DNA of 64,000 bases from Sediminitomix flava. Its GTDB lineage: Bacteria > Bacteroidota > Bacteroidia > Cytophagales > Flammeovirgaceae. Shown piece by piece: positions 48,474 through 53,028 of the stretch (position 1 is the stretch's first letter; the number at the start of each line of letters is the position of its first letter). The translations under genes were made by a program, and so were the position numbers. Under the pieces are notes generated by a model. The model was not told the origin of the DNA. It saw nothing but the letters and a program-made list of their open reading frames with translations, and did not search any database. The stretch is from assembly GCF_003149185.1 (NCBI RefSeq), contig NZ_QGDO01000004.1, positions 329,076-393,075 on the forward strand, in the 5' to 3' direction.

Positions 48474-49343
48474 ATGCTAACTCAAGCAGCATCATTTACT
48501 ACAGATTATAGTTTTGTACGAGGAAAATACGAGTGTATTAGCCTAATCCCCGATAAAGTAACTCAACCTCACCCATTGTTATTTCTTCATGGCGCTTGGC
48601 ATGGCGCATGGTGTTGGGAGAAACACTTCTTACCATTCTTTGCTCAAGAAGGTTGGGAATGTCATGCGATCAGTTTTCAAGGACATGGCAATAGCCTAGA
48701 ACGAAAACACATTCTAGGGACTTCGATCAGTGATTATGTCACAGACTTGAAAGAAATCATCACGAATATGAAAATAAACCCTATTCTTATCGGGCACTCA
48801 TTAGGTGGCTGGGTCATTCAAAAGTACTTACAAAAAACACCGAACATCCCTGCCATGATTTTGATGAATAGTATTCCTATTCAAGGTACTTGGAATACTA
48901 CAAAGACCATTTTCAAAGAAAATATTGGCGCTTGGAAAAGTGTTTTGAGAAGAAATTCAAAACTTTTGATGAATACCCCTGACAAGGTGAAAAGTCTATT
49001 TTATACAGGAATGGATGAAGATGAAGCTACGCTTCAACAAAACCTCAAACGCCTAGACAAAGAATCTTTACGAGTAGTTATGGATACGGCTATTCCTATT
49101 CGAAAAATCGATCATAAAATACCCGCTTTGATCATGGCTTCAGAAAATGACTATTTTTTCAGTCCTAGTCAACAAAAAGAGACTGCCGACTTCTATGATG
49201 CGGACTTCTTTGTGGTTGTTAATTCTGGGCATAACATCATGTTATCCTCTGAATGGGAACAAGCTACAACTGCTATTAAACACTGGCTTGATAAATACAA
49301 AGCTAAAAGAATGCATCTTCAAAATGCTGAACATCGATCTTAG
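48474..49343 (+). CDS. Alpha/beta-fold hydrolase
   Basis: A 289-residue soluble hydrolase. Landmarks are LFLHGAWHGAWCWEKHFLPF (oxyanion region), LIGHSLGGWVIQKYL with the nucleophile Ser in GHSLGG (about residue 106), LIMASENDYFFSP with the acidic residue, and NSGHNIMLS supplying the His. The tryptophan-rich start is typical of the lysophospholipase/MhpC-like group. Substrate unknown. Its 3' end overlaps the yraN gene on the other strand by 41 nt. Confidence 0.9.
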   Translation: MLTQAASFTTDYSFVRGKYECISLIPDKVTQPHPLLFLHGAWHGAWCWEKHFLPFFAQEGWECHAISFQGHGNSLERKHILGTSISDYVTDLKEIITNMKINPILIGHSLGGWVIQKYLQKTPNIPAMILMNSIPIQGTWNTTKTIFKENIGAWKSVLRRNSKLLMNTPDKVKSLFYTGMDEDEATLQQNLKRLDKESLRVVMDTAIPIRKIDHKIPALIMASENDYFFSPSQQKETADFYDADFFVVVNSGHNIMLSSEWEQATTAIKHWLDKYKAKRMHLQNAEHRS

Positions 49344-49659
49344 TATTTCTCTCTAGGATAGCGACAATATCAAAACGAAGAAATGCTTCTTTCTCAAAGT
49401 TTTCTAGGTAAAATTCAGCAGCTTGTTTTAGCATTTTTTCTTTGTGGGAACTTACCGCTGCTTCTGGAAATCCAAAACGATCTGAGCTTCTGTATTTCAC
49501 CTCTATAAATACTAAAAAAGGAGACTTGAACGCTATAATATCGACTTCACTACGTTTGTAACGATAGTTTTGGGCTAATATCTCATAGCCTTTTTCAGTC
49601 AGATATTCTCGAGCGATCAACTCTCCTTTTTTTCCTTTCTGAAGATGGTTATTTCCCAA
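49303..49659 (-). CDS. YraN (UPF0102) nuclease-like protein
   Basis: A 118-residue protein of the UPF0102 family, with the PD-(D/E)xK-like core in RSEVDIIAFKSPFLVFIEVKYRSSDRFG (Asp and the ExK pair visible). Family members resemble Holliday-junction-resolvase-fold nucleases; their function is not firmly established. It lies two bases after the thioredoxin gene, so the two are probably cotranscribed. Confidence 0.93.
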   Translation of the reverse strand: MGNNHLQKGKKGELIAREYLTEKGYEILAQNYRYKRSEVDIIAFKSPFLVFIEVKYRSSDRFGFPEAAVSSHKEKMLKQAAEFYLENFEKEAFLRFDIVAILERNTKIDVQHFEDAFF

Positions 49660-51053: not shown

Positions 51054-52181
51054 TTATTGATGGAGATTATACTTTTCTAATACACGTTTCCATGCTGATT
51101 TTGAGGTTTTATCAGCAAGTTCAGGGTTTATTTTATCTAGCAGTTTACTTTGTTTTGGCATCAGAAGACTGAAGTAATGACGATTAAATGTAACTGGCAT
51201 TATCTTCAATTTATTGGAAAGCTGTTCTACATTCGTGAGATATTTCATCACTGGTTTTTCATAGACAAATACATCTATTTCTTTTTTAGATAAGGCAATC
51301 ATACCATCCTTAGGTGTTTCATAAACCTTATAGGTCGAAATATTATAATTATCTAAGAAATCGTGGCTGCTTGAAAAGTTGACTGTCCCAATTTTTTTAA
51401 CCTTTTTCAAGTCTTCAAGATTCTCAATCTGATATTCCAATTGATTTACTGTAAGACGAGACGTAATCGTCGCTGTAAAACTGGAAATCAAACTAATAGC
51501 TGCAAACATCCACAACATAGAAATAAACCTTCCTAGCGGAGTTTTCGGAGTTTTATCACCATAACCGACAGTTGTAATAGTCACTGTTGACCACCAAATC
51601 CCATCCATAATTCCAACTATTCCATCTCTAAATTCATGTTGGTTAATCTTACGTTCTGCCAACCAAACCAAGACTCCAAAACCAAATACGATCATCATCA
51701 AGAGCATGACGAGCTTGATAAATCCGTATGAGAAAATATTGGAAACAAATATCTGTATTTGAGAATCTTCGGCATTTCGAACAGCAACACCAATACTAGA
51801 AGTAAAAAATGGATGCGTAACTCCTAATTGTCGGATACGTGTTCCACTCACAGGCATTGGGTTTATCGACAAGTCTATTTTTTTTCTGCTCAAACCTAAA
51901 AGCATTGCAGAAGTATGTTCATATTCCTCAAACTCATAAAGCAGATGTAACTCTTCGGCAAGCATGTACCAAAGATCAATACTCAAGCCATAGAACGACC
52001 CATCCTCATCTTTCATCACAAAAGGTGGGTCTTCTTGAACTCCTACTTTCAAGATTTTGGGAAACTCTTTTGGCTCTTCATCCATTGCTGAAATGGCATT
52101 GGGAAAGGAGAAAAAGAGTAGTAAATAAAAGAATATAGTTAGTCGTAGCGTAGAAAGTTGTTGCATGTATTTCCTTTTCAT
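51054..52181 (-). CDS. GluR0-type ligand-gated potassium channel (SBP3-TM-P-TM-SBP3)
   Basis: A 375-residue protein with the layout of prokaryotic ionotropic glutamate receptors. It has a signal peptide (to about 32) and the first half of a periplasmic amino-acid-binding-protein domain (about 42-135; LKVGVQEDPPFVMKDEDGSF). Then come TM1 (about 151-174), a pore helix and selectivity filter TVGYGD (204-209), TM2 (about 217-238), and the second half of the binding domain (about 245-372). The TVGYGD filter predicts potassium selectivity, as in cyanobacterial GluR0, with four subunits per channel. The ligand is probably an amino acid but not identified. It was recognised from domain order and motifs alone, with high confidence. 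Confidence 0.93.
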   Translation of the reverse strand: MKRKYMQQLSTLRLTIFFYLLLFFSFPNAISAMDEEPKEFPKILKVGVQEDPPFVMKDEDGSFYGLSIDLWYMLAEELHLLYEFEEYEHTSAMLLGLSRKKIDLSINPMPVSGTRIRQLGVTHPFFTSSIGVAVRNAEDSQIQIFVSNIFSYGFIKLVMLLMMIVFGFGVLVWLAERKINQHEFRDGIVGIMDGIWWSTVTITTVGYGDKTPKTPLGRFISMLWMFAAISLISSFTATITSRLTVNQLEYQIENLEDLKKVKKIGTVNFSSSHDFLDNYNISTYKVYETPKDGMIALSKKEIDVFVYEKPVMKYLTNVEQLSNKLKIMPVTFNRHYFSLLMPKQSKLLDKINPELADKTSKSAWKRVLEKYNLHQ

Positions 52182-52386
52182 TAGGTCTGCTTCGCATAAA
52201 GCAAATCCTATAAAAATATATGGTTTTTACCCACTTATCCAAGCTTTTGAGATAGAGCTTTCATAAGAAGTCAGATTATCACCTTTTTTCTATGTCTTTA
52301 CCCTAACAATATGTTAGAACATTATTCAAACATATCGTCACTATTTAAGTTTTTCTAGTAACTTGTCAATAAAACTGAATAAACTT

Positions 52387-53028
52387 ATGATGACTGGAAT
52401 TACCCACACGCACAAGCTTGTGGTTACATTGTTTTTGTTGATTTACTTAATCAAACTCGTACTTCTTCTCACAAATAAGAAGGATGCCCTCGCAAATTTC
52501 ACAAAGAGATTCAAAGTCCCTGAAATGATCATCAGCTTCCTTTTCCTTGCTACAGGAGGATATATGCTGTATTCAGGAGTAGCTTACACAAACCTTTTTG
52601 CCTTTAAATTAGCAGCTGTTTTTGCATCAATTCCACTTGCTATCATTGGATTCAAAAAGCAGAATAAAGCTTTAGCGGTACTTTCTGTATTGTTGATTTT
52701 CGGAGCATACGGAATGGCTGAAGTTCACAAGAAGAAAGTAGCTCGTGGAGAAGTATCTTCAGCTATTGAAGAAGCATCTTCTGAAACTGTTTCTGCAGAA
52801 TTGGAAGTAGGGTACAGAGTTTATAAACAACGTTGTAATGTTTGTCATGGAAAAGACGGTGCAAAGCAACTAAGTGGTGCTGCAAACCTTCAAGAAAGTG
52901 AATTGAATCAAGAAGACATCATCCATATCATCAATAATGGTAAAGGACGTATGGCTTCTTATGGAAACTTACTGACAAAAGATGAAATCAATGAGGTTGC
53001 TAAATACGTACAAAGCCTCAGAAAATAA
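52387..53028 (+). CDS. Membrane protein fused to a C-terminal cytochrome c
   Basis: A 213-residue protein. I start at the first of two ATGs (52387) rather than at a TTG upstream. About four helices occupy the N-terminal half, starting HTHKLVVTLFLLIYLIKLVL, with the pattern of SirB-like membrane proteins. A C-terminal class I cytochrome c domain follows with CNVCHG (Cys150, Cys153, His154) and a Met region (NGKGRMASYGNLL). The heme domain would face the periplasm. It may pass electrons from the quinone pool or to an oxidase; there are no other respiratory genes beside it. Confidence 0.85.
   Translation: MMTGITHTHKLVVTLFLLIYLIKLVLLLTNKKDALANFTKRFKVPEMIISFLFLATGGYMLYSGVAYTNLFAFKLAAVFASIPLAIIGFKKQNKALAVLSVLLIFGAYGMAEVHKKKVARGEVSSAIEEASSETVSAELEVGYRVYKQRCNVCHGKDGAKQLSGAANLQESELNQEDIIHIINNGKGRMASYGNLLTKDEINEVAKYVQSLRK

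Follow-up and report, generated by a model that had tools for sequence, protein, structure and literature searches.

Among the closest described systems is GluR0 (slr1257) of Synechocystis PCC 6803, a glutamate-gated K+ channel that Chen et al. are said to have described in 1999. Green sulphur bacteria, which sit in Bacteroidota under GTDB, presumably account for several of the Group 1 prokaryotic iGluRs that Ger et al. went on to describe. That group comprised 12 sequences in the available text of their report (Ger et al., 2010; PMC2950845), and the class had thus already been described when the sequence-only reading of this DNA called Bacteroidota examples little studied. No study of a Flammeovirgaceae member appeared among the literature matches listed (with most subscription journals outside the search), and the functional work among those matches concerns Synechocystis GluR0. 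According to the available portion of that work, GluR0 resides in the plasma membrane and sustains the growth of E. coli deficient in K+ uptake, its PhoA fusions indicate an inverted topology (with some values not significant), cells without it shrink faster after a KCl upshock, and the mutant does better on high-KCl agar (PMC13099474).

We analysed a 64,000-nucleotide stretch of the Sediminitomix flava genome, hereafter the window, and found on its minus strand one intact open reading frame of 375 codons with an ATG start and zero internal stops, exactly where the sequence-only reading had placed it and with the content it had given (Table 1). Chance, a frameshift and a pseudogene were considered as origins of this gene and rejected, given the open frame and its recurrence in relatives. 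The true start may instead be the ATG of residue 6 (window 52164–52166), because a Met aligns with it in 47 of the 54 rows of our first alignment of relatives (window counted; the count is uncertain by at most one row, L045).

Pfam assigned residues 44–372 to SBP_bac_3 (E = 1.9e-18), with Lig_chan (residues 159–262, E = 2.7e-17) and Ion_trans_2 (residues 161–244, E = 6e-15) nested within that span, and 19-residue hydropathy windows exceeding 1.3 were centred at residues 15–25, 151–170 and 223–232. The binding domain is interrupted, with M1–pore–M2 sitting between its halves, and the pore holds a TVGYGD filter, so that Pfam order, hydropathy and filter all bear out the split binding domain that had been described from the letters. 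No domain precedes S1 in the 375 residues, a hydropathy peak after S2 is absent, and NCBIfam profiles gave no match above their curated cut-offs. With S1 and S2 flanking two transmembrane helices and a pore loop, and with a K+-channel filter in that loop, the S. flava protein is a Group 1 prokaryotic iGluR (GluR0 type), from a kind known since 1999.

Table 1. Coordinates in the window of the channel gene, its parts and two nearby genes. Residue numbers count from the first ATG.
Feature	Window coordinates	Strand	Basis or remark
GluR0-type channel gene	51054..52181	-	375 aa; later start at Met6 possible
Signal-peptide-like N-terminus, residues 1-32	52086..52181	-	hydropathy; end inferred from sequence
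S1 half of binding domain, residues 43-136	51774..52055	-	holds R115 (alpha-carboxylate) and P110
M1 helix, residues 152-177	51651..51728	-	hydropathy and model
Pore helix and K+ filter, residues 188-209	51555..51620	-	sequence, Pfam, model (weak at 205-209)
TVGYGD filter, residues 204-209	51555-51572	-	
M2 helix, residues 215-243	51453..51539	-	SFTATITS at 234-241; hydropathy and model
S2 half of binding domain, residues 252-372	51066..51428	-	holds S270-S272, E308 and F337
YraN/UPF0102 gene	49303..49659	-	two genes between it and channel gene
Cytochrome c gene	52363..53028	+	divergent from channel gene

When the channel was compared with solved structures using phmmer, it matched the GluA2 AMPA receptor (E = 1.8e-13), the Nostoc GluR0-type core 2pyy (2.5e-12), GluR0 itself (1iit, 4.8e-12) and, through its pore, the ordinary K+ channel Lmo2059 (4h33, 8.6e-11). 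Once the two halves had been joined, the strongest matches were the ABC-transporter binding protein 6h30 (5.8e-17), 2pyy (3.8e-16), AncQR (7.7e-15) and GluR0 1iit (9e-15), with those to 2pyy and 1iit spanning most of the core. A profile of 34 relatives (alignment A2, a chosen subset) ranked 6h30 (2.8e-53), 2pyy (3.6e-45) and AncQR (5.3e-40) first and an AMPA receptor after these (7.4e-36), the last aligned as a single stretch that takes in S1, the pore and S2. In addition, the channel's SFTATITS aligns at the place of SYTANLAA, the iGluR gate motif (PMC3483616, available text). The ranking of 6h30 and 2pyy above AMPA receptors in the profile is a point against the GluR0 reading. The GluR0-like architecture and the kinship to GluR0 and animal iGluRs, both proposed in the sequence-only reading, were nevertheless recovered in sequence, profile and fold matches.

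The domain family and the fold are both common to uptake proteins, as would be expected had the gene instead encoded a binding protein for amino-acid uptake whose hydrophobic stretches arose by chance. We consider that scarcely credible: a K+ filter and the Lig_chan and Ion_trans_2 matches lie between the halves, the architecture recurs in relatives, and none of the six neighbours scanned with the channel is an ABC permease or ATPase by Pfam.

The cleft was modelled and its fold compared with that of GluR0, as had been suggested from the sequence. AlphaFold2, run on the monomer with five sequences, gave a mean pLDDT of 71.6 and a pTM of 0.51 (a two-sequence model, at 35.3 and 0.22, was unusable). 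In ten-residue blocks, pLDDT was 77–91 over residues 41–130 and 71–88 over 251–370 except at 311–330 (49 and 52), and the model was weak at the filter (pLDDT below 50 at 205–209) and at 313–321. This five-sequence monomer model supports the folding of S1 and S2 into one two-lobed binding domain, and halves left unassembled were not seen.

Among 1000 realigned chains, first place went to the L-glutamate-bound GluR0 core 1ii5 (Z = 26.1, rmsd 2.1, 218 of 221 residues, 23% identity) and third place to 2pyy (Z = 25.9, rmsd 2.1, 212 of 212 residues, 23% identity); GluK and GluA cores reached Z values of about 23, and the NMDA receptor chain 9unk aligned over 319 residues at 4.2 Å. Because glutamine-binding proteins came within 1 Z of the GluR0 cores, the fold alone cannot single out a glutamate receptor. 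The best 50 Foldseek rows were all AMPA receptors, at TM-scores of 0.50–0.64 and rmsd of 5.6–8.3, values at which the modelled placement of the pore relative to the binding domain is not to be trusted.

Direct support for the GluR0 reading comes from the gene being intact, the order of its domains, the K+ filter, sequence homology and a model that has both halves in one domain, and we put the probability that the gene encodes an amino-acid-gated, K+-selective channel of this type at roughly 85%. Such a channel would be anchored in the inner membrane, its S1 and S2 halves facing the periplasm; M1 and M2 would span the membrane, the pore loop would dip in from the cytoplasm, inverted relative to KcsA, and four subunits would form the pore. 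An alpha-amino acid would be held between the lobes, its carboxylate on R115 and its amino group on E308, and lobe closure would pull M2 open at SFTATITS and let K+ flow down its gradient. Here we infer topology, tetrameric state, gating, K+ selectivity and a fast ionic or osmotic role from GluR0.

Because the pore also resembles those of ordinary K+ channels (Ion_trans_2; Lmo2059), one might picture the protein in the ordinary K+-channel orientation, with its binding domain in the cytoplasm. Several features make this very unlikely. The N-terminus is hydrophobic and signal-like by hydropathy, the binding family is an exported one, and positive charge is higher in the pore–M2 loop (three Lys or Arg, one Asp or Glu) than in the segment before M1 (none of either), the M1–pore loop being balanced (three and three). 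The PhoA fusions of GluR0 described above also speak against it.

To compare pockets we used an alignment of 70 rows (the window and 69 others), of which 66, window counted, entered the pocket and filter counts; the fragments L039 and L071 and the duplicates L015 (= L010) and L062 (= L057) were left out. Its GluA2 register is partly assumed, and its GluR0 register comes from the joined-halves alignment. In GluA2, positions 450, 478, 480, 485, 654 and 705 contact the ligand backbone and positions 653, 655, 704, 708 and 732 the ligand side chain (PMC12226733, available text). The channel has P108, P110, R115, S271 and E308 at 478, 480, 485, 654 and 705, and S270, S272, Y307, V311 and F337 at 653, 655, 704, 708 and 732.

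Position 485 is Arg in 63 of the 66 rows, and the channel keeps it as R115, aligned with the GluR0 arginine. Three positions differ from most relatives: 705 is Asp in 62 rows and Glu, as in the channel, in two; 732 is Tyr in 58 and Phe, again as in the channel, in two; and 480 is Thr or Ser in 52, with Pro, the channel's residue, in 11. The pairing of E308 with F337 is confined among the 66 rows to the window and G017, whereas the Flammeovirga rows share Pro at 480 but retain Asp 705 and Tyr 732. In the available text of Ger et al. (PMC2950845), the S2 Asp that meets the alpha-amino group is totally conserved across the 22 sequences of Groups 1 and 2, and the channel's Glu, which leaves the charge unchanged, is a further point against the GluR0 reading. 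In the alignment R115 and an acidic 705 are both preserved, which points to an alpha-amino acid as the class of ligand. The name 'glutamate receptor' used in the sequence-only reading stands as a statement of homology, but not as one of ligand, given the three altered positions.

Glu 705, Phe 732 and the loss of Thr 480, as seen in the window and G017, might tune the channel to an amino acid other than glutamate (glycine, serine or another), the pocket of a GluR0-type channel having been retuned in this lineage; such a switch would differ from the main GluR0 reading in ligand alone, and we regard it as possible, with the odds somewhat against it. In the animal code, Ser 653 with Phe 732 goes with glycine or D-serine, and 655 is hydrophobic (PMC12226733, available text). 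The channel fits at 653 and 732 but has Ser272 at 655, and GluR0 (Thr 653, Ala 655 and Tyr 732 in our alignment) misfits the code as well, which makes the code doubtful for bacterial receptors. AMPA receptors, moreover, have Glu at position 705. At most, the animal code weakly hints at glycine or serine for the channel and gives no clear call.

The same three odd positions would also be expected if the binding domain were vestigial, on a K+ channel that had lost its gating and was constitutively open or silent, and a leak current passes through a placozoan receptor that has no Asp at 705 (PMC12226733, available text). We think this improbable for the S. flava gene, in which the frame is free of stops and R115 and an acidic residue at 705 are kept, with S1 and S2 well kept in the family, and we retain the reading of an amino-acid-gated, K+-selective channel.

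The TVGYGD filter recurs in 55 of the 66 rows. Elsewhere in the alignment, five class or phylum relatives (L065, L067, L068, L056 and L063; 5 of the 66 rows) have filters other than TVGYGD, TTGYGD or TIGYGD, namely SGGCEN, TAGFGD and VGGTDN, with the remaining two aligning poorly, and K+ selectivity has possibly been lost in these five. Three loci from one other family of the order (L016, L017 and L018) have His or Arg at 732, and in L018 Tyr replaces the carboxylate-binding Arg, a pocket change adjoining the window's clade.

At E ≤ 1e-20 the channel had matches in 13 of 18 family genomes, in 23 of 390 genomes sampled from the order and in 15 of 395 sampled from the class (its own genome counted in each), a recurrence beyond chance. 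In a sample of 395 genomes from the phylum, 40 had a Lig_chan match at E ≤ 1e-5 (34 of these passing the curated cut-off), against 0 of 14 control genomes. The S. flava genome (6.6 Mb, 99.4% complete, 39 contigs) holds a single full-length copy of the channel, which is also its only match to SBP_bac_3 at E ≤ 1e-5, the one family of amino-acid-binding domains searched for; SBP_bac_3 occurs in 12 of the 14 control genomes. Ion_trans_2 has six matches in the S. flava genome, five of them in other genes.

The nearest relative of the channel is G017 (59%), and in a tree of 65 of the 70 aligned rows (L010, L039, L056, L063 and L071 left out) the window and G017 group together with nine Flammeovirga genus-group rows (100/99). 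L010, from the same GTDB family, and L015, from Flammeovirga pacifica, encode an identical channel protein. In all ten loci L003–L012 YraN/UPF0102 lies directly downstream of the channel gene, and in S. flava thioredoxin and outer-membrane-protein genes stand between the two; the divergent cytochrome c gene is common to the window and G017 only. These neighbours look like inherited gene order, and YraN is probably not a functional partner of the channel. The recurrence of YraN after the channel gene in ten loci, together with a GC content of 35.5% for the gene against 37.2% for the window, makes a recent gain within the family unlikely. Older losses or transfers are possible, because the two remaining family loci (L013 and L014) lack a flanking YraN match and branch elsewhere in the tree, and 5 of the 18 family genomes have no match to the channel at E ≤ 1e-20.

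Relatives also turned up on mobile and viral DNA. Plasmids of Rhizobium tumorigenes (29.7%), Salmonella enterica (24.5%) and the cyanobacterium Kovacikia minuta (21.8%) carry relatives that cover 90–94% of the channel query, the first two annotated merely as 'transporter substrate-binding domain-containing protein'. On a 264-kb IMG/VR contig (3300018080_000099), L080 (1947–2960) is a full-length S1-M1-pore-M2-S2 protein with the filter TVGYGDK, 24% identical to the channel. The contig also carries a terminase gene (198701–199312, E = 1.3e-27) and a Gp23-type major capsid gene (193149–194174, E = 6.2e-88), while the PF04984 tail sheath was not found on it; from its sequence, L080 looks like a large-phage K+ channel of the GluR0 type. 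A putative glutamate receptor in chloroviruses and plain K+ channels in phages have been published (PMC6163359, available text), and a phage GluR0-type channel was not found in the literature searched.

Two further full-length channels (L078/L089 and L079/L091), on IMG/VR contigs of 119 and 40 kb, share a cassette of a CesT_Tir_1-family gene, a PspA/IM30-like gene and the channel, with both PspA matches below the Pfam cut-off; the channel gene of L081, on a 211-kb contig, is the same as that of L078. The viral nature of these three contigs is unsure, since the terminase, capsid and sheath families tried had no match on them. Among named phages, 23 records matched L078 and 0 covered 80% of it. 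In BFVD, E3T502 of Cafeteria roenbergensis virus, a 'putative ABC-type amino acid transporter', matched 373 columns of the channel model (Foldseek E = 1.8e-18, TM 0.56, rmsd 11) and, going by this model comparison, may be glutamate-receptor-like.

What is new here is a Flammeovirgaceae member of the GluR0 type with an unusual pocket; the class itself is known. Bacterial iGluRs are living models of how the animal neurotransmitter receptor arose out of an inverted K+ channel and a binding protein. A Bacteroidota channel that is single-copy and kept in the family, whose pocket has changed and whose genome yielded no SBP_bac_3 uptake protein, offers a clean test case for the evolution of ligand choice, and for the use that a bacterium makes of such a channel. 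If the pocket has been retuned, a bacterial iGluR would have switched ligand naturally, in a genome where no other SBP_bac_3 sensor domain was found.

Set beside known systems, the channel resembles animal AMPA, kainate and NMDA receptors in its unbroken S1–pore–S2 profile match and in the position of the gate motif; unlike it, these receptors have an extra N-terminal domain and M4 and usually have no GYG filter (PMC3483616, PMC12332018; available text). AvGluR1 of Adineta vaga shares the glutamate-receptor core (4io7, Z = 23.2) and, in the available text of PMC12332018, a K+-channel filter signature, but has eukaryotic iGluR architecture. The ABC binding proteins GlnH, ArtJ and AncQR have the fold of the channel's binding domain (Z of about 23–26) with no pore between their lobes. 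The Nostoc punctiforme core 2pyy has the same fold at 23% identity, in a comparison that covers the soluble core, the only part in the PDB, and not the pore. GluR0 and Group 1 share with the channel the order S1-M1-pore-M2-S2, the GYG filter, the carboxylate-binding Arg and a signal-like N-terminus, and like it do without an N-terminal domain or M4. The GluR0 core superposes on that of the channel at 2.1 Å over 218 residues, with about 23% identity, and the differences lie in the pocket, where the channel has Glu and not Asp at the amino-group position, Pro and not Ser at 480, and Phe and not Tyr at 732.
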